Shown piece by piece: positions 29,155 through 59,577 of a stretch of DNA of 63,221 bases. Position numbers and translations under genes: made by a program. Numbering within the stretch: the first letter of the stretch is position 1; the number at the start of each line of letters is the position of its first letter. Source of the stretch: Arenimonas sp. SCN 70-307 (GTDB taxonomy: Bacteria > Pseudomonadota > Gammaproteobacteria > Xanthomonadales > Xanthomonadaceae); assembly GCF_001724815.1 (NCBI RefSeq), contig NZ_MEDO01000013.1, positions 1-63,221 on the forward strand. The letters are read 5' to 3'. The notes below the pieces were generated by a model. The model was not told the DNA's origin and searched no databases. It saw nothing but the letters and a program-made list of their open reading frames with translations.

Positions 29155-30459
29155 ATGGCGACGGCATCGGGAAAGCAGCCGCACGTGGTGGTGGTGGGCG
29201 GCGGATTCGCCGGCCTCTGGGCCGTGCGGGCGCTGGCGCGGGCGCCGGTGCGCATCACACTGGTGGACCGCTGCAACCACCATCTGTTCCAGCCGCTGCT
29301 TTACCAGGTGGCCACGGCCGGGCTGTCGGCACCGGACATCGCGGCGCCGCTGCGGCACATCCTGCGCCGCCAGGCCAATGTCGAGGTGCGCCTGGCCGCG
29401 GTGGCGGGCGTTGACGCCGATGCCAAGTGCATCCGGCTCGAAGGCGGCGACGCGATCGCGTTCGACTATCTGCTCCTGGCCAGCGGGGCCACCCACGCCT
29501 ATTTCGGCCACGATGAGTGGGAAGCGCATGCGCCGGGCCTGAAGACCCTGGACGACGCCTTGCACCTGCGTCGGCGCCTGCTGCTGGCCTTCGAACACGC
29601 CGAGGCCGAGCCCGACCCGCAGCGGCGCAAGGCCTGGCTCGAGTTCGCCATCATCGGCGGCGGGCCGACGGGCGTGGAGTTGGCGGGCACGCTGGCCGAG
29701 ATCGCCCGGCACACGCTGCGCCGTGAATTCCGGCGGATCGACCCGGCGCAGGCGCGGGTGCGGCTGGTGGAGGCGGGTCCGCGGGTGCTGCCGTCGTTCC
29801 CGGAAACCCTTTCCGCCAAGGCCCGCCGCCAGCTCGAGCGCCTGGGCGTGGAGGTCGTCACCGGCACCCCGGTGACCCGGATTACGGGCGAGGGTTATTG
29901 GCTGGGCGAGCAGTTCGTGCCGGCCGGCACCGTGGTCTGGGCGGCGGGCGTTGCGGCCTCGCCGCTGGCGCGCAGCCTGGGCGTACCGCTGGACCGGGCG
30001 GGCCGGGTGCGGGTGGCGCCGGATCTTTCCGTGCCGGGCCATCCGGACATCTTCGTCGCGGGCGACCTGGCGGCCGTGAGCCAGGGCAAGCGGGCCGTGC
30101 CGGGCGTGGCGCCCGCCGCGAAGCAGATGGGGCGCCATGTTGCCAAGGCGATCGCGGCGCGACTGCGGGGCGCCGAGGCGCCCGCGTTCCGCTACCGTGA
30201 TTTCGGAAACCTCGCCACGATCGGCCGGATGGCCGCGGTGGTGGATTTCGGGACGCTGCGGTTCTCGGGGCTGCCGGCCTGGTGGTTCTGGCTCGGCGCC
30301 CACGTGTTCTTCCTGATCGGTTTCCGCAACCGCCTGGTGGTGCTGCTTAACTGGTTCTGGGCCTACTGGAGCTACCAGCGGGTGTCACAGTCCGCCAAAC
30401 CGCGGCGCACCGTGACAGCCCCTGGGCAAGTTGCGGAAAGATATAGACATTTCTTCTAA
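29155..30459 (+). CDS. ndh: Type II NADH dehydrogenase
   Basis: A 434-residue FAD-dependent, non-proton-pumping NADH:quinone oxidoreductase. The first Rossmann motif VVVVGGGFAG is at 11-20, the NADH-binding motif IIGGGPTGVELAG near 165-177, and the FAD-ribityl segment IFVAGDLAAV near 300. The C-terminus has hydrophobic, Trp-rich segments (PAWWFWLGAHVFFLIGF and LNWFWAYWSYQR) that anchor it to the membrane. Last evident core gene before the mobile region. Confidence 0.92.
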   Translation: MATASGKQPHVVVVGGGFAGLWAVRALARAPVRITLVDRCNHHLFQPLLYQVATAGLSAPDIAAPLRHILRRQANVEVRLAAVAGVDADAKCIRLEGGDAIAFDYLLLASGATHAYFGHDEWEAHAPGLKTLDDALHLRRRLLLAFEHAEAEPDPQRRKAWLEFAIIGGGPTGVELAGTLAEIARHTLRREFRRIDPAQARVRLVEAGPRVLPSFPETLSAKARRQLERLGVEVVTGTPVTRITGEGYWLGEQFVPAGTVVWAAGVAASPLARSLGVPLDRAGRVRVAPDLSVPGHPDIFVAGDLAAVSQGKRAVPGVAPAAKQMGRHVAKAIAARLRGAEAPAFRYRDFGNLATIGRMAAVVDFGTLRFSGLPAWWFWLGAHVFFLIGFRNRLVVLLNWFWAYWSYQRVSQSAKPRRTVTAPGQVAERYRHFF

Positions 30460-30933
30460 CCTTGTCCTCCGGGAACCGGGGGTTGCGGATGGCGTGCGAC
30501 AGCATTACGGAGCATGCTGGCATCTAACGTCACGGTAAAGCGGATACCGGCCAGCGAACAGCCGGTTGCGCAAGCGGCCTCCACCCGGCGACGCCCGGGG
30601 CCGCCAGCGAGCGCGAAACCCCTGCGTGGCGCGGGGTAAACACATTTCGGCAGAACCTCGTCTAACTTTCGCGGGCGAGAAACACCGCTAGCGTCCCTTT
30701 ACTCACCTCCGCCAGCGCGCCTCGAGCCGCCGGCACGGACGATGCGTCGCCATCCCCGATGGAGCGTGAGCAGCTCAAGGCAGAGCGTCCTTGTGGGACA
30801 TCCACAGTCTCCAAGCTCCTTGGCATGGAAGCCTCTCATTCAAGGGAGGGCACCCCATGGGCATCTGTTGACCACAAGCCAAATCGTCGCTCCGACCCAT
30901 GTCGGGGCCGCTCTGTGCCTTGGAGAAATTCCT
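30460..30933. other. Gene-free region between ndh and tnsA; candidate transposon end
   Basis: No convincing gene. The sequence TCTAAC recurs three times (about 30456, 30523 and 30661) and ACATTTC twice (about 30448 and 30642). A 6-bp inverted repeat ACCGGC/GCCGGT lies at 30546-30566, and CTTGTGG/CCACAAG are found at about 30790 and 30872. In Tn7-like elements one end with clustered TnsB sites lies beside tnsA, so these may be transposase sites, but no clean terminal repeat or target duplication could be fixed by eye. Confidence 0.35.
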
Positions 30934-31404
30934 ATGAAAGCAATGCATCAACCCCCGCCGTCCAGAATGGACGGCGCCATTCGATGGTCCGCTCGAGAAA
31001 TTCCGCTCTCCCATGGGAGACACGTCTGCGGTCGCGTTGCTTGGACGCCACCCACCCAGTCCGTGCCCGTAGAGAGCGATCTCGAGGCGCATGCCATTGC
31101 GTTCTTCTCGCGACACGCCGGCCTGGTGGCTATCCACGCCCAGCCGTTCACTCTCCGCTACGCGGATGACCAGGGCGTCCACCGGTACACACCTGACTTC
31201 CTGGTGGTCTACGACCGGGTCACCCGCGCCATTGTCCGGTTGGGATTTCGACGGTGGACGGTCGTCGAAATCAAGTCGAAGTCCATGTTGGACCGTGATC
31301 CTGACGCTGTGAGCCGCCGCCTGGCGGCTGTTCGCCGGTTGCTCGGCTTCGCCACGGTCGTGCTCACCGAATGTCAGCTTCGGACGGGGAGGGCGCGGCC
31401 ATGA
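30934..31404 (+). CDS. TnsA-like transposon endonuclease
   Basis: A 156-residue protein with a TnsA N-terminal type nuclease fold. Probable catalytic residues are Glu51 (ESDLEAHA), Asp88 (YTPDF) and the EIK triad Glu112-Lys114 (VVEIKSK). TnsA cuts the 5' strands at the transposon ends while TnsB cuts the 3' strands, which gives cut-and-paste transposition. The ATG at 30934 follows a GGAGA ribosome site. It overlaps the next gene by ATGA, and no C-terminal TnsC-binding domain of Tn7 TnsA length is present. Confidence 0.8.
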   Translation: MKAMHQPPPSRMDGAIRWSAREIPLSHGRHVCGRVAWTPPTQSVPVESDLEAHAIAFFSRHAGLVAIHAQPFTLRYADDQGVHRYTPDFLVVYDRVTRAIVRLGFRRWTVVEIKSKSMLDRDPDAVSRRLAAVRRLLGFATVVLTECQLRTGRARP

Positions 31405-33194
31405 CGCTCGAACTCACCCCAGGCACGACCTGCGTCGCCAATGGCCGGGTCATCCAGATCGACGGGGCCGACTCGCTCACCCACATGCGCGTGCGTGATG
31501 TGGCCACGGGGGCGGTCAGTTCCGTCGCGATCGCCCGGATCGAGGCGCTGCCCAAGACTGCGGCTGCCTCGTCCTTCGAAGGAATCCCTGCCGCGGAATG
31601 GAAGCGTTGCTGTGACCTCGCCAAGGACCTGACGCCCCTGAACAGCCGGACCACCGTCGCCCGCAGCGAGCTCGAAAAGCTCGCCAAGCGTCACGGCATC
31701 AGCGTCAGGCAGCTTCAGAGGGCCCGTGCGACCTTCAGGAAGGACCCACGCGCCAGCGCCTTGGCCCGAAGCCCGGGAGGTCGGCCGCTCGGACTAAATC
31801 AGCTGGATCCGGAGGTCGATGCGCTGATCAAGCACGTCATTGCCAAGCACTACCTGCGCCGGGAACGACCGTCCAAGGAATACGTGGTTGTCCGTGCCCG
31901 CTCCCTGGCTCGGCGACTCAAGCTCAAGCCGCCGTCCCGATCCGCGGTGCTGACCCGAATCGCCCGTGAAGACGGCTACCAGGCGGACCGCGCCCGGCTG
32001 GGTTGCAAGGCGGCCAAGCAACGCTGGGAGGCCCGCACCGGCAAGTTGGAGGCGGAACGGCCCCTGGATCTTCTGGAAATTGACCACACCCCGGCCGACG
32101 TCCTCGTCCTGAGCGATGACCGCCTAACCGTGATCGGACGTCCGTGGGTCACCGTGGCCATCGACGTGGCGACCCGCTGCGTCATGGGCATGTACATCTC
32201 CATGGATCCCCCTTCCGCGGTTTCTGTCTCCCTGTGCGTGGAGCACACGGTGCTGCCCAAGCCCGAGAACGAGGGCGATCCCGGCATCTGGCCCATGTAC
32301 GGCAAGCCCAAGAAGATCCTGGTCGACAACGGCAAGGACTTCCGCAGCATGGCGCTGCAGCGTGGCTGCCAGGACCATGGGATCGACCTGGCCTGGCGGC
32401 CGGTGCGGACGCCGCACTACGGGGCCCACATCGAGCGCCTGATCGGCACGCTGATGCAGATCGCCCACCTACTGCCGGGCACCACCTTCAGCAACATCCG
32501 TGACAAGGGCGACTACGACAGCGCCGGAAAGGCTCGCCTCACCCTGGATGAGTTCCGCCAGTGGATGACGCAGAAAGTCTGCCGGACCTACCACACGCGC
32601 AGGCATTCCAGCCTCGGAGTTCCGCCACTGGTGGCCTGGGAGCGGGGCCTGCAGGACGAACAGGGCCAGATGGTCCCGCCGGCGCTGCCGGCGGCCCCGC
32701 TGAAGTTCCGGATGGATTTCCTGCCGTACGTGATGCGGCCGGTTCGGCGCACCGGCATCACCTTCGGCGCCAGTCGCTACTGGCACCCGGACCTCAGCCC
32801 CCTCATCCGCCAGGACGAGGTCATGGTTCGGTACGACCCCCGCAGCCCCGGTGCCGTTTGGGTCCGTCGTCCCGACGGCATGCTCGTGACGGCGCCGGCG
32901 ATCGCCGGGCGGGCGGTGGGCGAACCGGGCAGCCGACGTGCCCTCGATGCCGAGGCCCAGGCCCGGATGGACGCGATGACGGACGAGGGCTTCGAGAAGA
33001 CCGACCAGATTGAAGCGGCCGCCCAGGCGCAGACCCGTCAGGCCCGTCATCCGTCGCGTCGCCCGCGGACCCAACGCTCCTCGCCGCGATCTGCGGCCGC
33101 CAGTGCGGCTGCCGTGAACCCCACCGATCTCAGCGCCCTGCCGGCGAAAACCCCGTCGGCCCGTGCGCCCATCCCTGTTGAAGAATGGACCTAA
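31401..33194 (+). CDS. tniA: TniA/TnsB-type DDE transposase (Mu C-terminal family)
   Basis: A 597-residue transposase with N-terminal DNA-binding helices (about 85-200), an RNase H-like catalytic core with Asp228 (EIDHT), Asp309 (LVDNGKDF) and Glu345 (HYGAHIERL), D to E spacing 36, and a Mu-type beta-barrel C-terminal domain (about 440-530). A basic, Ala/Arg-rich tail follows, probably the TnsC contact. The ATG at 31401 overlaps the tnsA stop and has GGGGAGG upstream. Confidence 0.92.
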   Translation: MTLELTPGTTCVANGRVIQIDGADSLTHMRVRDVATGAVSSVAIARIEALPKTAAASSFEGIPAAEWKRCCDLAKDLTPLNSRTTVARSELEKLAKRHGISVRQLQRARATFRKDPRASALARSPGGRPLGLNQLDPEVDALIKHVIAKHYLRRERPSKEYVVVRARSLARRLKLKPPSRSAVLTRIAREDGYQADRARLGCKAAKQRWEARTGKLEAERPLDLLEIDHTPADVLVLSDDRLTVIGRPWVTVAIDVATRCVMGMYISMDPPSAVSVSLCVEHTVLPKPENEGDPGIWPMYGKPKKILVDNGKDFRSMALQRGCQDHGIDLAWRPVRTPHYGAHIERLIGTLMQIAHLLPGTTFSNIRDKGDYDSAGKARLTLDEFRQWMTQKVCRTYHTRRHSSLGVPPLVAWERGLQDEQGQMVPPALPAAPLKFRMDFLPYVMRPVRRTGITFGASRYWHPDLSPLIRQDEVMVRYDPRSPGAVWVRRPDGMLVTAPAIAGRAVGEPGSRRALDAEAQARMDAMTDEGFEKTDQIEAAAQAQTRQARHPSRRPRTQRSSPRSAAASAAAVNPTDLSALPAKTPSARAPIPVEEWT

Positions 33195-33204
33195 GGAGCT
33201 TGTC

Positions 33205-34122
33205 ATGACCGACTATTCCCACCTCGACCCCAAGACCCAGGCCTGGCTCGAACTGCCGGATCTGGAGCGTGCCAACCGGATGCTCATCGACCGCTTCATC
33301 ACCCACGAACGGCTGCAGCCGATCATGGATCACATCGATTTCCTTCGCTTCAGTCCGCCCAAGTCCCGGGCCAGCGGACTGGTGGTCTCGGGACTTCCCG
33401 GCTCGGGCAAGACCATGATCGCCCGTGCCATCGAACGCAGGTACCCGCCGATTGCCGCCGAAGGAAGCAAGGCGGCCAGCCTGCCGGTCCTGACGATCGA
33501 AATGACGGGTGCCCGTGAGGCCCGGGCGCTCTACGACCGGATCCTGACCGAACTGGGGGTGCCTGATCCGAAGCGCTACGTGGGCAGCGACCGCGAACGC
33601 ATGGTCCTCAAGCTGTGCCGGGCGGCCAATCTGCGCTTGCTTGTGGTCGACGAAATTCAGGACATCCTGACCTCGACGGCGCGGCAGCAGCGCATTGCCC
33701 TGGATACGATCAAGTTCCTGATGAACCAGCTGTCGATGCCGGTGTTGGCGCTGGGAACGGCCCAAGCACCGGACGCGATGCAGGTCGACGAGCATCTCAA
33801 TGCCCGCTTCACCTACCGCAGCCTGCCGGTCTGGAAGCAGGACACTTACCTGGTGAACTTCCTAGATGCTCTGGAGCGCGTGCTGCCCCTCAAGCAGCCC
33901 TCGCAGCTCTCGTCGCTGCCGATCACGACCGCGCTGCTTCGGCTGTCTGACGGCGTCCTCGATCCCATGATGCGACTGATTACCTATGCGGCAGCCCATG
34001 CGGTCGAGTCTGGGACGGAGCAGATCACGCCCCAGCTGCTGGAGCGGGCGAGGGTGGAAATGCCCACGGCCGCTGTCAGGCTAGCGCGGGAACGCGCGAA
34101 CGAACCGGCCAAGGCCGCGTGA
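33205..34122 (+). CDS. tniB: TniB/TnsC-type transposition AAA+ ATPase
   Basis: A 305-residue AAA+ regulator that links target selector and transposase. Walker A is GLPGSGKT (63-70) and Walker B LLVVDE (145-150), followed by sensor and helical lid regions. The ATG at 33205 has AAGGAG upstream and lies ten bases after tniA. The size matches TniB rather than the longer Tn7 TnsC. Confidence 0.9.
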   Translation: MTDYSHLDPKTQAWLELPDLERANRMLIDRFITHERLQPIMDHIDFLRFSPPKSRASGLVVSGLPGSGKTMIARAIERRYPPIAAEGSKAASLPVLTIEMTGAREARALYDRILTELGVPDPKRYVGSDRERMVLKLCRAANLRLLVVDEIQDILTSTARQQRIALDTIKFLMNQLSMPVLALGTAQAPDAMQVDEHLNARFTYRSLPVWKQDTYLVNFLDALERVLPLKQPSQLSSLPITTALLRLSDGVLDPMMRLITYAAAHAVESGTEQITPQLLERARVEMPTAAVRLARERANEPAKAA

Positions 34123-34967
34123 GCATGGAACAAGCCACTCCCCGCTGGTGGGTCTCACCGCCCGGGCCCGACGAGTCACTGCGCTCGTGCCTGGCCCGGG
34201 CGGCCACCCTGTACGAGAGTGAGCCCGGCGAACTGTGGTCGCAGCTCCATGCCGGTGCCCAGCAACCGGCGGGGACCGTGGATGACCCATCGTGTCCCGC
34301 GCTGCAGCGCCTGGGGCTGGCCCTCGGGGTGCCAGCCCCTTCGCTGCGGCCGCATCGGTTGCCGGATTCGCCAGCGCTCTTGGCACCCCAAGCTCGAATG
34401 GCGATTTGCCCGGCTTGCTGGGCTGAGGACGACGCCGCGGGCCGGCCTCGCGGCTACCGTCGCAGCTGGTCGCATGTCCTTCGCACCATCTGCCCGGTTC
34501 ACCACGCCCCCTTGATTCTCCCGCGGGACCGGCTCAATCCTGACCTGGCATCTGCACTGGGAGTGCAGGCGGCTCTCGATGACCATGATCGTGAAATTCT
34601 GGAGCTGATCGAGCGGTTTGGTGCAGCGCTCGAGGCCAGCCTGTTTGAGAGCACCCTCTGGCCGGCAGACTGGCAGGGGAGCCCGCGGTCCGCGCGTGAA
34701 TGGCTCACCCGTGTGACTTTCGACCCCGGTGCCACCAGGGGGCCGCCGCTCATCGCCAACGTATCGGCACCCCCAGCCTTGGCGGGATTCATCCGAGGCC
34801 CCCGTCATTACCGGGAGTTGAGAGGCGCGGACGGTTGGGAGGCCTTCCGGCACCTGGTGGACCCCTGTGAACGTCGCGCCGCAATATGGCTCGTGGCCTG
34901 GCAAATGATGCCGGCGGTCCCCGTCAGCTACTCACCCGGCTGGATCGACATCCCCGGACTACTTTGA
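34119..34967 (+). CDS. tniQ: TniQ-family target-site selector
   Basis: A 282-residue TniQ-domain protein with a zinc-binding motif formed by Cys97, Cys100, Cys125 and His128 (CPAC and CPVH). TniQ/TnsD proteins recognise the insertion target and recruit TniB/TnsC. The GTG at 34119 overlaps the tniB stop as GTGA; an ATG two codons later is equally possible. No Cas genes accompany it, so targeting should be by TniQ itself. Confidence 0.85.
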   Translation: MSMEQATPRWWVSPPGPDESLRSCLARAATLYESEPGELWSQLHAGAQQPAGTVDDPSCPALQRLGLALGVPAPSLRPHRLPDSPALLAPQARMAICPACWAEDDAAGRPRGYRRSWSHVLRTICPVHHAPLILPRDRLNPDLASALGVQAALDDHDREILELIERFGAALEASLFESTLWPADWQGSPRSAREWLTRVTFDPGATRGPPLIANVSAPPALAGFIRGPRHYRELRGADGWEAFRHLVDPCERRAAIWLVAWQMMPAVPVSYSPGWIDIPGLL

Positions 34968-35336
34968 ACGGATATCCAGGTTCTAGTGCAGGTTCAAAGC
35001 CACACACATTGAGCTGGAAACTCGCCGCTTTGTGGGATCGAACGCGGACGGGATCGGAAAATGGAGGGCAGGTAAGGTCGATCTTACGCCGAACCCTAAA
35101 TGACCCCGCTACTCAAAGAGGGGGACGTCGATGGATTATGGCCTCTGGGCTGTCTAGGAAAGTCTGGGCGGTCCACCTTGCTGCTGACCTACAGTCAGGC
35201 GACCCTGGCCGCCCGAAGCAAGGCGAGAAAGGCGCTCGGCCTCAAGTAGGGGAAGCGCTGCGACCAGGCATTAGGGATTTGAGGACATCAGCGATTTTGC
35301 CGCGTGTCGCCTACCGGCTTCGGTAATGCAAACGGG
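34968..35336. other. Gene-free region downstream of tniQ
   Basis: 369 bases with no frame that has convincing codon use and no tRNA cloverleaf. Its base composition is less GC-rich than the flanks. It could hold regulatory RNA, transposase sites or remnants of an older insertion; nothing specific is recognised. Confidence 0.4.
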
Positions 35337-36206
35337 TCAGTCGGTGTCCGACTCCCAGGGGGGCCAAACACGCAGGTGGCGCGGCAGGATGAGCAGGGAC
35401 ATCACGCTATCGTACTGGTCGGCCGTGATCTTGAGCTCTCGCAGGGAGGACCCCGCCTCCGCATGTGCAAACCAAGTGCGGGCATCTACCGTACGCCCGG
35501 CACGATCCACCGCTACTTGATCATCGGACGCTAGCGCTCCGGGGGGTACTTCGACTGGGCGGCCGCGTGTGCGGAAAAATGCGCCGGCACGCATCGCCAA
35601 TTTGCTGGCATGCGACCAACGCATGAACCCGTCGCGCGACACGACCAGGACGGCGTTTTCATCGGTGAAATCCAGCCACTTCAACGTCGTTGCCGTCAGG
35701 GACGTGCCATAGCGATCTGCGCACGCGCCCAGCAAGGCGAAGTCCACTTTGGCGTTGACCTGCTGGCGGAAGTCGTCCAGCGGCATCAACAACGTCGACG
35801 CGAAAAGGTCCGCCTGAGCCTCGATATTCTTCTCGTCATCCGACCAGTCGAGCATGTCCTGCTCGGTGCACTCAAAGGATGCCCGGCCGCGGCGGTGCAA
35901 CAGGTAGTGCCCCAGTTCATGGGCTTGGGTAAACCGAATCCGCCCGGGCGAGGTCAGCCGATCGTTGAACAGCAGATACCACTCGCGACGATCGTCGCCG
36001 GGATACAGGGCCCCCTCAAAGCGGGGGATGTTTGCCGCGTGGACCTGGGTGATGGGGTCGTCCCAGTGAAAGATCGAGGCGGCCTCCCGGGCCAGCTCCG
36101 GCACCGCCACCGGAAAACGATCCAAGCCATGCGCAGCGGCGAACGCGTTGACGACCTTCGTGAGGCGATACGCGGCCTTGGACGGCGTCCAGATCTCCGG
36201 TGTCAC
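35337..36206 (-). CDS. ImmA/IrrE-type metallopeptidase
   Basis: A 289-residue protein with the zinc peptidase motif HELGH near residue 96, followed by EAQADLFASTLLMP, the classical ImmA/IrrE layout. Such peptidases cleave or antagonise a partner XRE repressor and derepress mobile or stress genes. It starts at GTG 36206, overlapping the XRE gene stop by four bases, so the two are co-translated. The C-terminal 130 residues have no recognised motif and may sense a signal. Confidence 0.85.
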   Translation of the reverse strand: MTPEIWTPSKAAYRLTKVVNAFAAAHGLDRFPVAVPELAREAASIFHWDDPITQVHAANIPRFEGALYPGDDRREWYLLFNDRLTSPGRIRFTQAHELGHYLLHRRGRASFECTEQDMLDWSDDEKNIEAQADLFASTLLMPLDDFRQQVNAKVDFALLGACADRYGTSLTATTLKWLDFTDENAVLVVSRDGFMRWSHASKLAMRAGAFFRTRGRPVEVPPGALASDDQVAVDRAGRTVDARTWFAHAEAGSSLRELKITADQYDSVMSLLILPRHLRVWPPWESDTD

Positions 36207-36529
36207 GCGTCTTTCCGGAAGGACTCGACGATGCGCCGGATGGTTTCTTTGTCTTCCGGCTGCAGGTTGGAATAGCTTCGGAAGAACGCATCTTCGACGT
36301 GCCGCTGCTCGGGCTCGTCGACCGTGTCATCGAGCAGGAAGTCGGTGGTGACGCCAAGAATCGACGCCAGCGCCGCGAGCTTCTCCGCCGAGGGGCGCGG
36401 GGAGTCCCGGTTTTCCAGCTCCCACAAGTAGCTCTTGCTCATGCCCGCCGTCGCCGCGAGCTTGTCCAGGGTCATGCTGCCGTTCTTCTTGCGCAGCGCT
36501 CTGAGCTTGTCGCCTAGCTTTGTCGCCAT
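36203..36529 (-). CDS. XRE-family transcriptional repressor
   Basis: A 108-residue protein with an N-terminal helix-turn-helix of the Cro/C1 type (about 5-60: LDKLAATAGMSKSYLWELE) and a short C-terminal helical extension. The ATG at 36529 (MATKLGDKLR) gives the usual XRE N-terminus. It is the likely substrate or partner of the coupled ImmA/IrrE peptidase and divergent from the Ubl operon, which suggests it controls that operon. Confidence 0.85.
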   Translation of the reverse strand: MATKLGDKLRALRKKNGSMTLDKLAATAGMSKSYLWELENRDSPRPSAEKLAALASILGVTTDFLLDDTVDEPEQRHVEDAFFRSYSNLQPEDKETIRRIVESFRKDA

Positions 36530-36705
36530 AACAGGATGTGGCCTTTGTGTCAAGTAACATCAGCTACCACTATACCGAACAAAATGTTTGACATGCACGC
36601 AAATCCTGTTCAAGCTGGGCGCAAGTTCGGTACAGCGAACGATATATGCTGGCAAAGACGCATTCTGCCGCCAGTGGTTTCGGTCCGAGATCCAAGGAGT
36701 TCCCC
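36530..36705. promoter_or_regulatory. Divergent control region between XRE and the Ubl operon
   Basis: It contains a dyad GTTCGGTACAGCGAAC (36625-36640) and a related half-site CCGAAC at 36575-36580, plus a TTGACA at 36588-36593 and an AT-rich GATATATG at 36641-36648. The repeated CGAAC half-sites are candidate XRE operators. No single -35/-10 pair with correct spacing could be fixed, so promoter positions remain open. Confidence 0.4.
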
Positions 36706-36972
36706 ATGAACAAGCCCCAAGATCCCCCCGGCCAGGGTCCCGGCCACCAGCACGGCGAACCGGTCACCATCAGCGTAGACGGCGTCGACCGCACCATCGC
36801 CGATGGCGTCTACAAGGTCAGCGCGCTCAAGCACCAGTTTGGCATCCCGCTGGACTACGAGCTCGACCAGGTCGTGGATGGCGTGTTCACGGCCCTCAAC
36901 GACGCCCGGTCCCTGCACATCCGCGGCGGCGAGGTGCTGGTGAGCCATGTCCGCCAGGGCGGCTCCTCGTGA
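36706..36972 (+). CDS. Ubiquitin-like modifier (Multi_ubiq type, single domain)
   Basis: An 88-residue protein. A flexible Pro/Gly/His-rich N-terminus (1-18) precedes one beta-grasp domain of the multiubiquitin family (about 19-84), recognised by VTISVDGVDRTIADGVYKVS and GIPLDYEL. The C-terminus is HVRQGGSS, so a Gly85-Gly86 pair is followed by a two-residue tail. By family logic the JAB protease would trim the tail and the E1 would adenylate the diglycine. The ATG at 36706 has AAGGAG upstream. It is the first gene of a five-gene operon and overlaps the E2 gene. Confidence 0.82.
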   Translation: MNKPQDPPGQGPGHQHGEPVTISVDGVDRTIADGVYKVSALKHQFGIPLDYELDQVVDGVFTALNDARSLHIRGGEVLVSHVRQGGSS

Positions 36973-37319
36973 GCGCGGACGAGGACTTGCTGGCCAGCGC
37001 CCGGCGCATCAACCCGGGCGCCCAGCTCGTGAAGGAAGGCGGGCACCGCTTTGTGTACCTGCCCGCCCAGCCGGTGGACACCGGCGAGCGGCGGCGCGTG
37101 CTGGACGCCCTGCTGTGTCCGGGCCCGCATTCGGGGTACGCGACCCGGTTGTTTCTCGCCGAGCCGATCCCCGAGCGTGATCGCATCCAAGGCCAGGCTG
37201 CCAATTGGACCGTGCACTCGATCCTGGGCCGGGCTTGGCACTCGTGGTCCTGGCAGAACGTCCAGGCCAGCCTTCCGCTGCACCAGATGCTGCTCGCCCA
37301 CCTGCACGCGCTGCGATGA
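36969..37319 (+). CDS. E2-like ubiquitin-conjugating protein (Prok-E2_E type)
   Basis: A 116-residue protein starting at GTG 36969, overlapping the Ubl stop as GTGA. It resembles the prokaryotic E2 family E linked to multiubiquitin operons, recognised by the closing block NWTVHSILGRAWHSWSWQN (about 79-97). It has a single cysteine, Cys50 (LLCPGPHSGY), the only candidate thioester residue; a conserved His91 follows in the Trp-rich block. It would accept the Ubl from the E1 and pass it to a target. Family assignment is from memory of the pattern, not a search. Confidence 0.7.
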   Translation: MSADEDLLASARRINPGAQLVKEGGHRFVYLPAQPVDTGERRRVLDALLCPGPHSGYATRLFLAEPIPERDRIQGQAANWTVHSILGRAWHSWSWQNVQASLPLHQMLLAHLHALR

Positions 37320-37825
37320 ACTACCAGTTTCGGATCGCCGAAGGTCTTCTGGCGGCCGTACACGCCGACCTGTCCCGCCCCCACGCCCATGCCTATGAGC
37401 GTGTGGGCTTCATCCATTGCCGCTTCGGCGCCGGCCCGCACCGCAGCGTAATCCTCGCCCAGGACTACGCGTCGGTGGCGGATGCCGACTACCTTGAAAG
37501 CGAGGAGATGGGCGCCGTCATGGGCCCGACGGCCATCCGACTGGCGCTGCAGGCCGTCTATCGGCACCAGGGGCCGGTGTTCCACGTGCACCGCCACGAC
37601 CATGACGGCATTCCCGGCTTCAGTCGGGTGGACCTGCGTGAGAGCGCCAAGTTCGTTCCCGACTTTTGGAAGGTCGCGCCGAAGATGCCGCACGGCACGC
37701 TGGTGCTGAGCCACGACGCGGCGACCGGGCGGGTGTGGTGTCCCCGTGACCGCGAAGCACGGCCGCTGACCTCCATCGTGTCGGTCGGCACCCGACTGAC
37801 CCGCCTAGGAGCGGCCCATGACTGA
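37316..37825 (+). CDS. JAB/MPN-domain isopeptidase
   Basis: A 169-residue metalloprotease of the prokaryotic JAB group. Glu28 (YERVGF) and a His-rich cluster HVHRHDH (90-96) followed by Ser103 and Asp106 (GFSRVD) form a JAMM-like zinc site, though the spacing from the histidines to the Asp is not canonical. It should process the Ubl C-terminus to expose Gly-Gly and may remove Ubl from targets. The ATG overlaps the E2 stop as ATGA. Confidence 0.78.
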   Translation: MNYQFRIAEGLLAAVHADLSRPHAHAYERVGFIHCRFGAGPHRSVILAQDYASVADADYLESEEMGAVMGPTAIRLALQAVYRHQGPVFHVHRHDHDGIPGFSRVDLRESAKFVPDFWKVAPKMPHGTLVLSHDAATGRVWCPRDREARPLTSIVSVGTRLTRLGAAHD

Positions 37826-38648
37826 GCGCCACGTCCGCCAGAGCTTTCTCGGCCCGCATTCCGAAGAAATCTTGGCCCACACCGAGGTCACGATCGTGGG
37901 GCTATGCGGTGGCGGCTCGCATCTGGCCCAACAGCTGGCTCATATCGGCGTCGGCCGCTTCAATTTGGTGGATTTTGATCGGGCTGATGTCAGCAACAGC
38001 AATCGGATGGTCGGCCTCGATGCCGCGGCGGCTGCGCGCAAGGACCGCAAGGTCGACGTGATCCGCGAGCGCATCCTCGCGATCCAGCCGGGCGCACAGG
38101 TGGCGATCTTCGCCGCCCCTTGGCAGGAGGTGAGCGACGCGTTGAAGTTCAGCGACGTGATCTTTGGCGCCGTCGACAGTTACCGCGCCCGCGACGAGCT
38201 CGAACGTTTTGCTCGTCGCTACCTGATTCCCTACCTCGACCTGGGCATGGATGTGCACGGCGACCAAGCGCCCTACACGATCACGGGCCAAGTAATTTTG
38301 TCCGTACCCGAGGGTCCCTGCCTGCGTTGCTTCGGCTTTATCACCGAGCACCGCCTGACCGAAGAAGCGCAGCGCTATGGCGCCGCCGGCGGTCGACCCC
38401 AAGTCATCTGGCCCAACGGCACCTTGGCATCGACGGCCGTCGCAAAGTTCATGCAACTTGTCACGCCGTGGTCGCTCGATCGACCGGCGTTCTATACCGA
38501 GTACGACGGCAACCGATTGACCCTGATGCCCAGCCGCAAGCTACAAGCACTTCAGGGGCACCGCTGCCCTCACTTCGATGGTCCCCTCGCGCTGGGCGAT
38601 GTCGTCTGGGGCCAGGCCGATCGTCCCGTACCCGCGTCCACGCCTTGA
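37818..38648 (+). CDS. E1-like ThiF-family activating enzyme
   Basis: A 276-residue adenylating enzyme with the ThiF/MoeB/E1 fold: glycine loop GLCGGGSH (28-35), VDFDRADVSNSNR with Mg2+-binding Asp52/Asp54 (51-63), Lys78, and FGAVDS (116-121). A CxxC at 168-171 may bind zinc or contribute the thiol, but the second CxxC pair usual in ThiF is not seen. It would activate the Ubl C-terminal glycine with ATP. It overlaps the JAB gene by eight bases. Confidence 0.85.
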   Translation: MTERHVRQSFLGPHSEEILAHTEVTIVGLCGGGSHLAQQLAHIGVGRFNLVDFDRADVSNSNRMVGLDAAAAARKDRKVDVIRERILAIQPGAQVAIFAAPWQEVSDALKFSDVIFGAVDSYRARDELERFARRYLIPYLDLGMDVHGDQAPYTITGQVILSVPEGPCLRCFGFITEHRLTEEAQRYGAAGGRPQVIWPNGTLASTAVAKFMQLVTPWSLDRPAFYTEYDGNRLTLMPSRKLQALQGHRCPHFDGPLALGDVVWGQADRPVPASTP

Positions 38649-38677
38649 TCCTCTCACTGCAGCCAGGAGCTGATGCC

Positions 38678-38959
38678 ATGCCACGCTTCACCGTTCGTGT
38701 CGAACTTCACGGCGCCGATACTTGGGCGCACTACGAAAAGCTGTACGAGTACATGGCGCACCAAGGATTCACCGATACCCTCGTGACCGAGCAGGGGCGA
38801 GTCAAAATGCCGCCCGCCGAATACAACTACGAAGGCACCGCGACGCGTGCCGAGGTGCTGGCCAAGGCGCAGGTGGCCGCGGGCCGCGTGGTCACGTCCT
38901 ACGCGGTGCTGGTCACCGAGTCTGCGGGGCGCACGTGGTCTGGGCTCGAGAAAGCGTAG
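38678..38959 (+). CDS. GhoS/DUF2622-like small protein
   Basis: A 93-residue protein beginning MPRFTVRVELHGADTWAHYE. It resembles DUF2622 proteins, which include GhoS, a Cas2-like ferredoxin-fold endoribonuclease antitoxin. It has its own AGGAGC ribosome site and lies 29 bases after the E1 gene, so it is probably the fifth gene of the Ubl operon. A role as effector, antitoxin or unrelated passenger cannot be decided. The DUF2622 call is moderate; the N-terminal pattern is the main evidence. Confidence 0.55.
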   Translation: MPRFTVRVELHGADTWAHYEKLYEYMAHQGFTDTLVTEQGRVKMPPAEYNYEGTATRAEVLAKAQVAAGRVVTSYAVLVTESAGRTWSGLEKA

Positions 38960-39065
38960 CGCTGCCCATTGGGCCTACGTCTGCCGAGCTTACAAGTAGC
39001 CGGTCCCGCCCGGCGCCAGACGGCGGCTGGTTTGCCGTTCGCCGATCTGGGGCCGCTGGGGCGCG

Positions 39066-39308
39066 CTAGCGCTTTCCCTTCTGCGTCAGGACGCTGCCCG
39101 CCAGAGATTTCGTCGTCTTGCTGGTGCGTCCATCGGTGAGCGCCTTGGCGGCCTTGGTCGCTGTCGCCGGCGAACTTTGCTTGCTGGTCTTGGCCTGGGC
39201 CAGCGCGCTACCGGCCAACGATTTGGCGGTCGGACTGGCGGCGGGACTGCCCAGCACCTTGGCCGCGGTTTTGGTGACCTTGGGGCCTGACTGTTCCTTC
39301 TTGGACAT
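39066..39308 (-). CDS. Small Lys/Thr/Ala-rich two-repeat protein
   Basis: An 80-residue protein starting MSKKEQSGPK at ATG 39308, with AAGGAA upstream. It contains two copies of a motif TAKSLAGSALAQ/TTKSLAGSVLTQ (about residues 27-38 and 63-74), each preceded by an AAKVL/AAKAL helix. No signal peptide, no known domain. Convergent with the Ubl operon. Function unknown; composition suggests a disordered, basic, perhaps nucleic-acid-associated protein. Confidence 0.6.
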   Translation of the reverse strand: MSKKEQSGPKVTKTAAKVLGSPAASPTAKSLAGSALAQAKTSKQSSPATATKAAKALTDGRTSKTTKSLAGSVLTQKGKR

Positions 39309-39411
39309 GAGCGTGGTTCCTTCGGCTGGCCCAAGGAGACGCTCCGCACTGGAGGGGCCAGGCGCCGGTGCGGAGGCATTGCCGTCCATCAAGACTAGCG
39401 CAGTCGGGGCA

Positions 39412-39897
39412 TCACCGCGCCAGCGGCGTCCCCATCTCAACTTCCAGCGCAAATCCGGCGTCCAGCGCCTGGCGCTGCACACCGGTCGCTGCCGCAGGCA
39501 CGGTGGCGTGCAAGGTCACGGCCTCGTTGGACTGCGCCGTCAGGGGCGTGCAGCCGCGGGCATCGGCGGCGCCCTGGCCAGTCTGCACGGCGTGTTGCAC
39601 CAGATGGACCTGGACGCCCGCGGGATCGCGTTGCACTTGCACGTGCCAACCGGCGAACAGGCTCACCGAAGTCAGCGTTTGTTGGGTCGCCGTGCACGTG
39701 CGCACCGGGTAGCCGTTGTCTGTGCCGACGCGCAGGTGGGCGGGAGCCTCGGTGACGTACAGGGTTTCGGCCAGGATCACCTCGTCGTTCTGGGTCAACA
39801 CAAGGCGCATCGGCGTCATGTCGCCGATGTCATCCGCGGCAAGGGCAGGGTTGGTCAGGCTCAGGACGCCCAAAAGGGCGAGGGTGCGCAATGGCAT
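39412..39897 (-). CDS. Hypothetical periplasmic protein
   Basis: A 161-residue protein with a clear signal peptide (cleavage after NPALA, about residue 20) and a mature part rich in beta-forming residues. It has two cysteines (TCTATQ and RGCTPL) that could form a disulfide. No family recognised. It follows the desaturase-like gene on the same strand by 32 bases and may be co-transcribed with it. Confidence 0.6.
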   Translation of the reverse strand: MPLRTLALLGVLSLTNPALAADDIGDMTPMRLVLTQNDEVILAETLYVTEAPAHLRVGTDNGYPVRTCTATQQTLTSVSLFAGWHVQVQRDPAGVQVHLVQHAVQTGQGAADARGCTPLTAQSNEAVTLHATVPAAATGVQRQALDAGFALEVEMGTPLAR

Positions 39898-39929
39898 GGG
39901 ATCACCTCTGTCGTAGGGACTGTCAGGGC

Positions 39930-40799
39930 TCAGGATGAGCCACGTGTCGCGGTCGGCGCCGAGGCCGGCCGTTCAAAAGGCCAACGCAGTTGCGCGCCAT
40001 AAGCGGTCGGGAAGGTCCGGTCCCGCAGGCCGACTTCGCCGGCGACCACCCCGTTGGGTCGATCGTGGAACGTGCGACCCAGATGGTCCCACAGCATCCA
40101 GAACTCCCCGAAGTTGACCTGCGCGTCTTCGTACTCGCGCTTGTGGTGCCAACGATGGATCTCGGCCACCCCCAGCACGTAACGCAAAGGTCCCATGCGG
40201 TAGTCGAGGTTGGCGTGCTGGAATGCCAGGTGCACGGCGAGCAGCGTGAGCCAGGCGCTGACGATGACCGGGGGCGCGCCCAAGGCGACGACCACCAGCA
40301 GGCCGGGGCTGGCCAGCAGCATGGCGCTCAGGGGATGACGCCGCTCGCCGTTGAGCCAGTACAGCCGTTCAGAGCTGTGGTGTGGGGCGTGCAGGCGCCA
40401 CAGCCACCCGACGTGGTGACTCGCCCGATGCATCAGGTACAGCCCCAGGTCCATGACCGCGCCGGCGAGCAGCACCTGCGCCCACGCCGGCCACGCGTCC
40501 GGCCAGACCGAGGGCAGGTCCACGCGCAGCGCATTGAGCGCGAACGCGGTGCCGGCCAGCACGGCCAGATTCACGAGCGCATGGGCGATGTCGGTGGCGA
40601 GATCGTCGTGGTCCTCCAGCCAGGCGCGCTGGTAGGGGATCACCCACTCCAGGGCGGCCACGACCGTCATTGCCACCAGGGCGACGGCCGCCAGCCCGGG
40701 CCATTGCCAGGCCGGGCGCGCCACGATCTCCAGCACCGCCCAAAAACTCAGCCCAAACACGACCGGATAGGCCGTCACGCGTAGCAGGGACCGGATCAT
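39930..40799 (-). CDS. Sterol desaturase/fatty acid hydroxylase family protein
   Basis: A 289-residue di-iron membrane enzyme. Histidine motifs of the superfamily are visible: HRASHH, HAPHHSSERLYW, HLAFQHANLDY and HRWHHKREYED. There are about five hydrophobic segments. The ATG at 40799 has AAAGGAG upstream. It would hydroxylate or desaturate a lipid at the membrane; the substrate is unknown. Neighbouring methyltransferase and AraC genes suggest a small lipid-modification cluster. Confidence 0.85.
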   Translation of the reverse strand: MIRSLLRVTAYPVVFGLSFWAVLEIVARPAWQWPGLAAVALVAMTVVAALEWVIPYQRAWLEDHDDLATDIAHALVNLAVLAGTAFALNALRVDLPSVWPDAWPAWAQVLLAGAVMDLGLYLMHRASHHVGWLWRLHAPHHSSERLYWLNGERRHPLSAMLLASPGLLVVVALGAPPVIVSAWLTLLAVHLAFQHANLDYRMGPLRYVLGVAEIHRWHHKREYEDAQVNFGEFWMLWDHLGRTFHDRPNGVVAGEVGLRDRTFPTAYGAQLRWPFERPASAPTATRGSS

Positions 40800-40880
40800 T
40801 GTTGCTCCTTTCACAAAAGTCCTGCGCCCAGCGGGGGGAACCACCGGGTGCCCGGCTTGAACAATTCGGCAGTCGCCGCG

Positions 40881-41537
40881 TCAGGCACGGGGTGGTCGGG
40901 TGGCCACCAGGAAATCGATACTGCCCAGCGGCACCGGCAGCGGGGACAGCGACTGCACATCGACGAAGCCGCCATCGACCAGGAAGGAAGTCAGCGTGCC
41001 GGCGGCGTGGTCACGCGTATTGGAGTAGCCATCGAGCAGGCGGACGAGATGGAACATCCCACGGCGCCAGCCCGCTTTGGCGCGCCCGAAATCCGCGATC
41101 ACCAGGCGCCCGCCCGGGCGCAGGACTCGTCGTAGTTCCTGCACCGCGCGGTGCTTGGCGTGAGGCTGAAGGTGATGGAAGAACAGCGTGGACACCGCGA
41201 GGTCGAAACGGGCGTCGGGCAGCGGCAAGGCATCGCTCCACCCGGGCAGCAGCCGGGCCTGGGCACCCGCGGCCTCGATTTTGGCCGCGGCCAACGCCAG
41301 GATCGCCGGGTCGGCGTCGATGCCGGTGAGCGTGGCCGCCGGCGCTGCGTTGGCCAGGGCCAGCAGCAAGGTGCCGGTGCCGCAGCCCAGGTCGAGCACG
41401 CGCTCGCCGGGGCGAGGCGCCGCCAGTGCGACGACGCGGTCCTTCATGTCCGCCTCGCGAGTACTCCAGGCGACCGTGCGGTCGTACCACGGGGTCAGCG
41501 CGGCAAAGCGCAACGCCGGAATGAAGTCAGTGGCCAT
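40881..41537 (-). CDS. Class I SAM-dependent methyltransferase
   Basis: A 218-residue enzyme with the SAM-binding motif VLDLGCGTGTLLLALA (about 47-62), the acidic loop GIDADPAIL and post-motif RRVLRPGGRLVIADFG. The N-terminus (LTPWYDRTVAWSTRE) resembles UbiE-like and phospholipid methyltransferases. The start overlaps the small membrane protein gene upstream by 11 bases, so the two are likely co-translated. Confidence 0.85.
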   Translation of the reverse strand: MATDFIPALRFAALTPWYDRTVAWSTREADMKDRVVALAAPRPGERVLDLGCGTGTLLLALANAAPAATLTGIDADPAILALAAAKIEAAGAQARLLPGWSDALPLPDARFDLAVSTLFFHHLQPHAKHRAVQELRRVLRPGGRLVIADFGRAKAGWRRGMFHLVRLLDGYSNTRDHAAGTLTSFLVDGGFVDVQSLSPLPVPLGSIDFLVATRPPRA

Positions 41538-41751
41538 CGGACGCTCCCGGCGGGTCGGGGGTCTCGGTCAGGATCAGTCCAGCGAGCAGCGCCATCAGCA
41601 GGAGCGGGTGCAGCAGCAGCAAATGAAGCAGGCTGCGCTCGATCAGGAACCCATCGATCAGCAAGACGAGGGCCGCCACGGCCAGCAGACCGCGCACGGG
41701 GCGACGCTGGCGGTGGATGAAGCGAGTCAGGGTGCGGGCCCAGGCCGCCAT
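41527..41751 (-). CDS. Small membrane protein
   Basis: A 74-residue protein with a basic N-terminus and two adjacent hydrophobic helices (about 22-38 and 42-58, with an HLLLLHPLLLM core). The ATG at 41751 follows a GGAG; a start nine codons further up is possible. Overlaps the methyltransferase gene. No family recognised. Confidence 0.55.
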   Translation of the reverse strand: MAAWARTLTRFIHRQRRPVRGLLAVAALVLLIDGFLIERSLLHLLLLHPLLLMALLAGLILTETPDPPGASDGH

Positions 41752-41847
41752 GAGGTTCTCCAGGAAGGGGCGTCCCATGCGCCCATGACCGACATCATCG
41801 ACGTGGCGCAGTCGGGCGGCTTGAACAAACCGGCTGACCTGGGGGCT

Positions 41848-42558
41848 TCAGCCACCTTGCCGCAGCGCGTGGATCACATCGCTCGGGGCCACCCCGAAGT
41901 GCCGCTGCATGGTCCGGGTCAGATGGGCGGCATCGGCGAATCCGGCGTCCTGGGCCGCTCGCGTCAGGCTCTCGCCCCTGGCCGCCAGCGTCAGGGCCTG
42001 CCGCAGGCGGAGCCAGCGCAGATAGGGCCGCAGCGGCATGCCAATCAGTTCCCGCACGCGATGTCGGAAGCGGCTGGGGGAGATAGCGGCCTCCGCGGCC
42101 AAGCTCGTCAACGTGCCCTCCCATGTCGTCCGGGTAACCAAGGAGTCCAGCACGCGCTGGACGCGGTCATCGGAGCCCTCCGCGGGGGGAACCGCCGGTA
42201 GGTCCTGACCCAAGGCCGCCAGCACGGGCCCCAAGGCCAGACGGGAAGGATGCGGCCAGGCGTCGAGCACCGCGTGTCGTTCTGCCGAGGTCAAGCCCCG
42301 GGCGCCGGCCACGCAGGTGGGTGACAACAGGCGGCCAGCCTGCGATTCCCGGTCCAAATACAGCAACCGCGCCGGTCCGGGGTGGAGTCGATGCACGACG
42401 TCCGCGTCGAGCAGCACCGCGGGTGCCTGGACCTCGCCCCGGCCACGGATCCAGACAACGACGTCTGCGGCCTCGCCGACCACCAACTGAAGCGCGTGGT
42501 GGGCATGGTCCCGGTTGTCGCCCACGGCGCCGGCGAACGTTGCCCAACCTGCGCCCAT
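41848..42558 (-). CDS. AraC-family transcriptional regulator
   Basis: A 236-residue regulator. The C-terminal 100 residues hold the double helix-turn-helix of AraC/XylS proteins (LTSLAAEAAISPSRFRHRV and LTRAAQDAGFADAAHLTRT), ending in FGVAPSDVIHALR. The N-terminal part resembles a small cupin-like sensing domain. It probably controls the methyltransferase/desaturase genes downstream on the same strand. The ATG at 42558 is chosen since upstream in-frame residues overlap the next gene. Confidence 0.85.
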   Translation of the reverse strand: MGAGWATFAGAVGDNRDHAHHALQLVVGEAADVVVWIRGRGEVQAPAVLLDADVVHRLHPGPARLLYLDRESQAGRLLSPTCVAGARGLTSAERHAVLDAWPHPSRLALGPVLAALGQDLPAVPPAEGSDDRVQRVLDSLVTRTTWEGTLTSLAAEAAISPSRFRHRVRELIGMPLRPYLRWLRLRQALTLAARGESLTRAAQDAGFADAAHLTRTMQRHFGVAPSDVIHALRQGG

Positions 42559-42620
42559 CAAGGCGCCGCCACGCCAGGGGGTGCGCGGCCGCCGGCGATC
42601 CAACGGGGTCAGGTCCGCGC

Positions 42621-43883
42621 TCAACCCGGACCCCGCAATGGGCGGGCGAGGGCATCGAGCGGGCGCAGTCCTTGCCCGAACCGCGCCATGGATTCGCGGT
42701 GCTCGGCCAGATCGCTGTAGGCGAGAAAGCGCAGGTCCAGGTCCAGCACGCGCTGGAACGCGGGCCGGGCGAACTGCGCCCGGGCATCGGCCTCGCGCCG
42801 GTCTGGCGCCACCAGGAAGTAGCGCCCGGCCAGGCCATCGGTCGCGCCCAGGGCGAGATCGAGCATGCGCACGATGCCCGAGTACAGACTGGTGCTGTGC
42901 TCGACCTCGAACGCGGCGGCCACCCGCCCCTCGGGCTCGATCCACAACACATCGATCAGCCGGATCGTGTCCACGGCCAAGGAGGCCTCCAGTGCCGCCG
43001 GCAGGCTCTCGAGGCACCCCTCGGCCAACCGGCCGCCGTTGTAGGCGCGCCCGCGATCATTGCTGGCGACCCACACCTGATAGCCCAGGGCCCGACCCAG
43101 GTCCCGCAGCCACCCCTGGACCTGGGTATGCGAGCGATCCTCGGCCGCCTCGGCGGCACGGCGCCGCTCGGCCGCGGCATCGCTGCGGACACGGGCCAGA
43201 TCGGCTGCCCACGCCGCCGCGTTGACCTCGGCGGTCGGCAGCGGCAGCCGGCCCGAGCCCACGTCAAACAGGAACCCGGCAATCGCGCCCAGATCATTCG
43301 ACAGCCGCGTCCGGTAGCGCTGGTTCAGTGCGAGCACGCCGCGGCGCATGGCGAGGTACTCGTCCCAGCGGCCCAGCTTGACCCGCGCCCCGGTCACGGC
43401 GTTGTAGCCCTTGACGATCGCGGTGTTGAACGGGGTGACCAAGGTCGGGTGCAGGAAGTAGAGCAGGTTGGCGGCCGCCGGGCCCAGACCCTTGATTCGG
43501 CAATCGTCCAGCGCCTGGATCGCCCACAGCACGCCGGCCTCGTCGTCGCAGCAATCGCAGGCGTGCAGGAAACGACCGAACGTGCGCTGGTTGTCGGGAC
43601 TCTCGTAGATGTCGGGGATCCGCAGCTTGGGCTTCCATAAGAAGGCGTGATCGGCGCCCTTGAAGATCTGACGCTGCTCGGCGACGGCCGAGACCACGGT
43701 CTCCAACGTGGAGCCGCGGTAGGCGGTGCCGAACGTACCGGCCTCGATCTCCTGCACGACCGCCTGCAGGCCCCGCCGGATCGAGCGGAAGTTTTTGATC
43801 CGCTCCTCCCACAGAAACCAGGTGCGATAGGTCCCGCCCGGATCCTGGCGCCAATGCTCCAGGGCCAAGGTCAGGTCGGGCAT
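42621..43883 (-). CDS. Predicted HhH plus restriction-nuclease-like protein
   Basis: A 420-residue protein not firmly identified. Residues about 120-165 contain a helix-hairpin-helix-like block (RIKGLGPAAANLLYFLHPTL). The C-terminal part has IDVLWIEPEGRVAAAFEVEH followed by TSLYSGIVRMLDL and FLVAPDRRE, a pattern seen in restriction-endonuclease-like proteins. A lone nuclease with a defence role is therefore suspected. No methyltransferase of the DNA type lies beside it. The ATG at 43883 is chosen; an upstream GTG at 43916 would overlap the next gene. Confidence 0.6.
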   Translation of the reverse strand: MPDLTLALEHWRQDPGGTYRTWFLWEERIKNFRSIRRGLQAVVQEIEAGTFGTAYRGSTLETVVSAVAEQRQIFKGADHAFLWKPKLRIPDIYESPDNQRTFGRFLHACDCCDDEAGVLWAIQALDDCRIKGLGPAAANLLYFLHPTLVTPFNTAIVKGYNAVTGARVKLGRWDEYLAMRRGVLALNQRYRTRLSNDLGAIAGFLFDVGSGRLPLPTAEVNAAAWAADLARVRSDAAAERRRAAEAAEDRSHTQVQGWLRDLGRALGYQVWVASNDRGRAYNGGRLAEGCLESLPAALEASLAVDTIRLIDVLWIEPEGRVAAAFEVEHSTSLYSGIVRMLDLALGATDGLAGRYFLVAPDRREADARAQFARPAFQRVLDLDLRFLAYSDLAEHRESMARFGQGLRPLDALARPLRGPG

Positions 43884-43908
43884 CACCAGGGCCTGCGTCA
43901 CGGACGCC

Positions 43909-44385
43909 TCATGGCGCCGCGGGCTTTGGCGCACGCGAGGAGCTGTGCATCGCGCGGATCTTCCAGGCTCCCTCCCGCCGCTCGAGCACCGTCGTGGCCA
44001 CGCCCTGACGCACCATGGGGTCTGCGCGATCGGGCAGCACGATCGTGTAGCGGTAGGTCTCCGTGGCCCAGGCGATGTCGCCGGCCTGCTCGACCGTCAC
44101 GGCATAGTCGTCGAAGGTGAAACGTTGGATATGGCCCAGTTCCGGGCCAATGTGATGCGTGACGTAATCGGCATAGGAGCCTTCGACCTTGCCCGATTCA
44201 ATCACTTCGTTGCGCTCGGCAAACAGGGCGTCCACCCCCGTCAGGTCTCGGCGCTCGAGCGCCGTCTTGTAAGTCGCCAGCACCGCCTTGATCGCGGCGG
44301 TGTCGTCCGAGGCTGCGGCGGCGGGGGCCGCCATCGTCGCACCGGCCAGCAGCAGGGCCGCCAGGCCCGTCCAGAATCGTGTCAT
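43909..44385 (-). CDS. Secreted NTF2-like (SnoaL/DUF4440) protein
   Basis: A 158-residue protein with signal peptide (cleavage near AAAAS, residue 25) and a single NTF2-like cone fold, recognised by the N-terminal helix AIKAVLATYKTALERRDL and the ending TTVLERREGAWKIRAMHSSS. It resembles the protein at 47758-48294 in the same island, so the two may be paralogues that bind copper or a small ligand in the periplasm. Last gene of the metal island on this side. Confidence 0.7.
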   Translation of the reverse strand: MTRFWTGLAALLLAGATMAAPAAAASDDTAAIKAVLATYKTALERRDLTGVDALFAERNEVIESGKVEGSYADYVTHHIGPELGHIQRFTFDDYAVTVEQAGDIAWATETYRYTIVLPDRADPMVRQGVATTVLERREGAWKIRAMHSSSRAPKPAAP

Positions 44386-55527: not shown

Positions 55528-55603
55528 GCGGCATTCCTCAATGGGGAGCCTGCCGGCGCGCCCCGATGGAGCGCGCCGGCCCGGTTGCCTTCGGTATGCT
55601 CTT

Positions 55604-59043: not shown

Positions 59044-59073
59044 GGCGCACCTCCGCCGTCTACGACGCGGGCG

Positions 59074-59544: not shown

Positions 59545-59577
59545 GGGGTTCAGCCGAGATACGCGTAAAAATGCCCC
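59545..59577 (+). repeat. Probable Tn3-family terminal inverted repeat
   Basis: The sequence begins GGGGTTCAGCCGAGATACGC and continues into an A-rich stretch ending GCCCC. A GGGG terminus followed by a GAGATA-containing segment is typical of some Tn3-family ends, and it sits exactly where the adaptor gene is cut. The partner repeat would lie beyond the right edge, so it cannot be confirmed here. Confidence 0.5.

Follow-up and report, generated by a model that had tools for sequence, protein, structure and literature searches.

A mobile, CapH/CapP-linked operon of a probable diverged Bub branch in Arenimonas, with an additional phage-type gene

What kind of protein-conjugation system is encoded by the compact gene cluster at positions 36706–38959 of a 63,221-nucleotide stretch of contig NZ_MEDO01000013.1 from Arenimonas sp. 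SCN 70-307 (hereafter the window)? An initial annotation had read it as a mobile, possibly defensive operon for a ubiquitin-like protein (Ubl), an E2, a JAB protease, and an E1, with a fifth gene behind them. We find that the operon belongs to a diverged branch of the Bub systems, is mobile, is linked to CapH and CapP, and carries an extra phage-type gene. It is of the known Bub kind, and what differs is the domain layout of the branch and the lack of a linked DUF6527 gene. The fuller reading, which we regard as probable, is a Bub-type ubiquitin-like conjugation operon that travels as cargo of a Tn7-like transposon, is switched by CapH/CapP, and transfers its Ubl without cysteine. The five open reading frames (ORFs) of 88, 116, 169, 276, and 93 residues, all on the + strand, occupy the whole of 36706–38959:

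36706–36972, + strand: Ubl (BubA-like), a single ubiquitin-like domain of 88 residues with the C-terminal tail RQGGSS
36969–37319, + strand: E2-like protein (BubB-like), 116 residues, GTG start
37316–37825, + strand: JAB/JAMM metalloprotease (BubC-like), 169 residues; HHalign to classic Bub JABs, complete JAMM set
37818–38648, + strand: E1-like adenylating enzyme (BubD-like), 276 residues; ThiF; best PDB relative Citrobacter BubCD
38678–38959, + strand: fifth gene, 93 residues, of a phage YmfI/GhoS-like family; probable passenger

As originally described, the Ubl/E2 and E2/JAB genes overlap by 4 bases each and the JAB/E1 genes by 8, and the fifth gene starts after a gap of 29 bases behind the E1. 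Separation of the core genes in homologous loci, which would have spoken against the initial reading, is not the pattern seen; 11 loci have the genes adjacent and in the same order, and the arrangement is therefore not a matter of chance. These 11 loci, to which the residue counts below refer, are the window and 10 related loci, aligned. Excluded were L019, which nearly duplicates L012, L018 from Spirosoma, in which the JAB gene is interrupted next to a Tn3 transposase, the plasmid matches H2 and H8, and the more distant JAB matches L009–L011 and L055–L057. L011 looks like a chance match (E 7.7e-4, one internal stop). Among the five proteins, only the E1 was matched convincingly in Pfam, PADLOC, and NCBIfam, and the Ubl, E2, and JAB gave no match there at E ≤ 1; with three of the four core proteins unmatched, these profile libraries overlook such systems. 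A promoter scan of 36400–39100 returned 0 sites, and four terminator-like sites were found in the same region versus 1.3 expected.

The annotation of a ThiF-type E1 is borne out by Pfam (ThiF, 4.1e-28). The protein also matches the NCBIfam ThiF/MoeB models weakly, and its nearest relative in the PDB is Citrobacter BubCD. The adenylation residues of MoeB are Arg73, Lys86, and Asp130, as given in PMC12355090; in our own mapping these correspond by position to R63, K78, and D120 of the E1, all three of which are invariant. The JAB assignment also holds. The HHalign probability against classic Bub JABs is 98.48%, and E28, H92, H94, S103, and D106, invariant in 11 of 11 loci, form a complete JAMM set. 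The Prok-JAB profile missed the protein, and PDB sequence searches with the single sequence and with an alignment found nothing credible.

PDB sequence searches with three-row alignments of the E2 and of the Ubl returned nothing credible either, and structure prediction was applied to both proteins after these searches. The E2 model (predicted local distance difference test, pLDDT, 89.8) is best matched by Citrobacter BubB with a Foldseek E of 0.023; the predicted fold thus favors the E2 call, whereas sequence profiles give no signal, the Pfam Prok-E2_E model having missed the protein. The Ubl model (pLDDT 76.3) has a beta-grasp fold, and bacterial multi-ubiquitin/BubA chains match it best in the PDB, none at Foldseek E ≤ 0.001. 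Its designation as Multi_ubiq-type is upheld by predicted fold and not by the Multi_ubiq profile, which matched the in-order Ubl homologues of L012 and L008 (1.1e-25 and 1.5e-19) and neither the window Ubl nor the single-domain homologue of L005. A G-x-S-S tail is terminal in all 11 loci, and by analogy the JAB would be expected to cleave the window Ubl behind Gly85, which is invariant, releasing G-S-S. In Citrobacter, a single 362-residue ORF encodes BubA and BubB; the deposited chains of BubA end at Gly229 and those of BubB start at about residue 228–230, which are construct boundaries rather than a measured cut.

The invariant residues of the E2 are L31, P32, D46, L49, G56, Y57, R60, L61, W80, W90, S94, L108, and H111. 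There is no Cys among them, and the E2 proteins of L005, L014, and L017 are entirely without Cys. In the window, S94 sits in a W-x-x-W-S-W motif. In the E2 domain from Citrobacter a single Cys, residue 355, lies close to the C-terminus. The only invariant Cys residues of the E1 are C168, C171, and C250, which together with H252 form a zinc-like set (CxxC...CxH). Since neither enzyme has a conserved catalytic Cys, a thioester relay through E1 and E2 is unlikely on the evidence of conservation, and the operon appears to do without the cysteines on which ubiquitin enzymes normally depend. Bub reportedly uses oxyester intermediates (Ye et al., NSMB 2026).

The Citrobacter Bub operon (BubA-BubB-BubC-BubD plus DUF6527) resembles that of the window in the order Ubl-E2-JAB-E1, in its homologous E1 and JAB, in BubB as the nearest match of the E2 model, in a multi-ubiquitin-like Ubl fold, in the lack of a thioester-relay cysteine set, and in having DNA-damage regulators upstream. 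Unlike Citrobacter, the window has one Ubl domain, encodes Ubl and E2 as well as JAB and E1 separately, has an E2 and a JAB that escape the Prok-E2_E and Prok-JAB profiles, carries the CxxC...CxH motif in its E1 and G-x-S-S at the end of its Ubl, lacks DUF6527, and has CapH/CapP instead of CapK/CapS. The "multiubiquitin" operons on alphaproteobacterial plasmids (Rhizobium, Methylocystis, Bradyrhizobium, Bosea, Sphingobium, Methylovirgula) belong to the same subfamily as the window; they share the four genes in order, the G-x-S-S tail, an E2 without conserved Cys and, in four of the six aligned, a CapH/CapP-like pair upstream. They differ in a Ubl of 234–237 residues (three Multi_ubiq stretches in L012, the one scanned), and the fifth gene was not found with them.

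Two genes absent from the initial account lie upstream of the operon:

36203–36553, − strand: CapH-like helix-turn-helix (HTH) repressor, divergent from the operon (PADLOC capH, 1.9e-31)
35337–36206, − strand: CapP-like (ImmA/IrrE, M78) protease (PADLOC capP, 3.2e-76; Peptidase_M78, 4.9e-16; HELGH motif in the translation)
36554–36705, no strand: intergenic control region with an inverted repeat at 36570–36580 / 36625–36635

An upstream regulator of the CapW, CapH/CapP, or CapK/CapS kind is common, not universal, for Bub operons, and the window has the CapH/CapP form. PMC13373217 counts 219 of 544 Bub operons next to CapW or CapH plus CapP and 59 of 544 next to CapK plus CapS, and describes CapP as activated by single-stranded DNA and then cleaving CapH. 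As in other uses of the CapH-CapP switch (CBASS, Bub, and others), the window pair is divergent from its operon; here the partner is a Bub-type operon of the diverged branch. The inverted repeat, CTATACCGAAC / GTTCGGTACAG, lies in the interval that separates capH from the Ubl gene and might be considered a candidate CapH operator. CapH- and CapP-like pairs adjoin the window, L005, L012, L013, L014, and L017, and another HTH model outscores capH in L005, L014, and L017. L004 has CapK/CapS-like neighbors, which match the Citrobacter pair by BLASTP at 3e-14 and 3e-7, and L015 an annotated Xre/RES pair; the neighbors of L008 and L016 gave no clear assignment. Directly beside the related Bub operon of L007 (L058, 5835–7464) are a PD-Lambda-2_B defence protein (1.4e-85) and, judging from its translation, an acetyltransferase gene.

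The transposition genes that had been noted beside the operon are confirmed at 30742–34967:

30383–30412, no strand: left end of the Tn7-like element (TGTCACAG...); same end in four sister genomes with different left flanks
30742–31404, + strand: TnsA-like endonuclease (PF08722, 5.3e-6, 27.3 bits versus a cut-off of 26.5; no PADLOC match)
31371–33194, + strand: TnsB transposase (profile searches, PADLOC/Pfam)
33163–34122, + strand: TnsC/TniB AAA+ ATPase (TniB, 9.7e-42)
34119–34967, + strand: TniQ/TnsD-like protein (TniQ, 2e-14)

The set of TnsA, TnsB, TnsC, and TniQ is complete, with TnsA barely above its Pfam cut-off. The left end was set at 30383 because DNA identity to G387, G389, G391, and G394 (91–98%) begins there despite their different left flanks. 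Homology in G389 and G391 jumps from 34963 to 43916, and the intervening cargo is therefore absent from both. The G387 element lacks 35176–37867, a segment that holds CapP, CapH, Ubl, E2, and JAB and extends 50 bases into the E1. What remains there of the operon is the rest of the E1 together with a fifth protein identical to that of the window (93/93 residues). Just upstream of this junction, G387 (L047, 6357–11775) has an unrelated insert encoding a 1253-residue phrog_18693 protein (3.9e-127) and a 338-residue protein, with no PADLOC or Pfam match for either gene. Loss and insert together amount to changed cargo at one site, and G387 was taken as the derived state because its E1 has lost its start. 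No inverted TGTCAC end that would mark the right end was found within the window; a block at 53540–59547, common to several sister genomes at 87–91%, stops at 59544–59547, which is possibly an element boundary. An NADH-dehydrogenase-like gene (29155–30459) holds the left end at its 3' end; its homologues end at 30380/30381, and the final codons of the ORF therefore stem from the element. The same cargo region encodes a type II restriction-enzyme-like protein (42621–43934, − strand; PADLOC REase_II, 6e-13; no Pfam match).

The JAB was detected in 1 of 61 relatives, namely the genome itself, in 6 of the 369 genomes sampled from the class (the source genome, two strong matches in G057 and G170, and three weak ones), and in 4 of 398 genomes of the phylum, again including its own. 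A pattern scan of genome contigs gave two JAB relatives, L004 (Nitrosospira) and L005 (Paraburkholderia). Ten plasmid records matched the JAB and also encode E2 homologues, adjacent to the JAB in nine and far apart in Spirosoma. The 36 pattern matches in viral contigs included no relative, and phage records gave no match. At E ≤ 1e-20 the E1 was found, among 27 genomes of the genus, only in its own genome and G387. The system is sparse in the sampled genomes, which fits horizontal movement. The original proposal of a mobile and possibly defensive Ubl-conjugation operon is supported.

The observations comprise the gene order and its conservation, the predicted folds, the intact adenylation and JAMM residues, the lack of a conserved catalytic Cys, the CapH/CapP neighbors, and the mobility; how the operon is regulated, trimming of the tail, transfer by oxyesters, what is tagged, and a defensive purpose are inferred. 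By the reported CapH/CapP mechanism, CapP would become active upon DNA damage or phage attack and would cleave the repressor CapH, so that the divergent operon is switched on. The JAB would trim the G-x-S-S tail of the Ubl back to Gly85, and the E1 would adenylate the trimmed C-terminus. The Ubl would then pass to its targets via non-cysteine sites on the E1 and the E2, probably hydroxyl groups forming oxyesters, and the JAB could reverse the tag. A more specific version is offered tentatively: a distinct minimal Bub branch with a single Ubl, four genes, and no DUF6527, in which the Ubl would be carried on the invariant S94 of the E2 and the JAB would cut at G-x-S-S, giving a Cys-free cascade that both conjugates and deconjugates and is spread by Tn7-like elements.

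Several points weigh against the probable reading. The Foldseek E of the E2 match to BubB is modest. The profile–profile comparison of the E2 with classic Bub E2s (HHalign Prob 0.19%) was no better than mismatched controls, and the link to BubB therefore rests on predicted fold and gene position. Of the 11 loci, 6 and not all have a CapH/CapP-like pair as neighbor. The DUF6527 protease gene is part of the Bub operon, although it may not be universal; it is absent from the Arenimonas genome and was not found in 9 of the 10 other subfamily genomes or plasmid records searched whole. In the same search, the Citrobacter plasmid, whose operon carries the gene, served as the positive control, and DUF6527 was also present in L060. 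In the tenth record (Bradyrhizobium plasmid W03) it lies about 28 kb from the locus, beside another ThiF gene. The branch therefore runs without a linked DUF6527. Finally, phage protection by Bub operons is described as not yet demonstrated in PMC13373217. Apart from these points, the second ThiF gene and nearby DUF6527 gene of the Bradyrhizobium plasmid (L014, CP092842.1, near 221873–224528), about 28 kb from its window-type operon, may mean that two Bub branches are present on one plasmid. Bub pathways are a newly described family, and the four-gene branch, with its separate small enzymes, single Ubl, CapH/CapP, and 10 further loci, provides a simple set for testing Cys-free ubiquitin-like transfer and for asking whether the tag serves phage defence.

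Bil-type operons, cited as known protective systems in the initial annotation, are a disfavored reading of the window. A Bil (bacterial ISG15-like) operon, in which cysteine thioesters tag phage virion proteins, has the same component set (BilA-D) and types and the same order Ubl, E2, JAB, E1. However, the Bil E1 and E2 use catalytic Cys, and such cysteine-dependent enzymes are impossible in the window by conservation: the E2 has no conserved Cys (3 of 11 have none) and the conserved Cys of the E1 are only the zinc-like ones. With BubA, BubB, and BubCD as the closest structures, the operon is nearer to Bub, and a Bil identity is very improbable. Slightly less credible still is a sulfur-carrier or cofactor-biosynthesis operon of the ThiS-ThiF/MoaD-MoeB type with the JAB maturing the carrier. 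The weak ThiF/MoeB matches, the ThiF/MoeB-like zinc motif, the missing catalytic Cys, and a Ubl that terminates near Gly would suit it, but not the linked E2 of predicted UBC fold, the CapH/CapP neighbors, the patchy distribution with transposon and plasmid carriage, or an E1 closest to BubD. A Bub-type system that serves the host in a general stress response to DNA damage, and not in defence against phage, is possible, though doubtful. CapH/CapP is a DNA-damage switch, and PMC13373217 raises this possibility for Bub operons; mobile, patchy carriage and conflict-type genes (REase_II-like in the window, PD-Lambda-2_B on L058) favor conflict functions instead.

Whether the Bub-type operon is truly a five-gene system, with the GhoS/YmfI-like fifth protein as effector, adaptor, or antidote, turns on the linkage of the fifth gene. 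The original GhoS/DUF2622-like label falls short (PF11080, 13.4 bits versus a Pfam gathering cut-off of 21); NCBIfam YmfI_phage (1.2e-7, 32 bits versus a cut-off of 140) and phrog_8894 (4e-14) match better. The 29-base gap, the shared strand, and the intact gene beside the E1 remnant in G387 speak for a component. The last says little either way because the G387 element is nearly identical DNA, and the gene is kept there though Ubl, E2, and JAB are gone from the locus. The gene was not found around the other 10 subfamily loci (4.0–7.1 kb covered downstream of the E1 in nine, 560 bases to the contig end in G057), and a tblastn search of all 65 loci detected it in no others than copies of the window, G387, and four viral contigs. 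These contigs encode its closest relatives (48–59% identity) near genes that read as phage integrase-, terminase-, and lysozyme-like, with no Bub genes seen in the DNA covered; more distant relatives (29–38%) occur in 11 plasmid records and one phage record. Of 369 genomes from the class, two have it (its own and a weak match without JAB), as do two of 27 from the genus (its own and G387). A five-gene system is thus unlikely, and the fifth gene, counted as part of the system in the initial annotation, is most simply explained as a passenger of phage origin that may share the transcript of the operon. In the viral contig L043 the fifth-gene family is represented twice, by diverged copies at 2011–2292 and 2940–3302.
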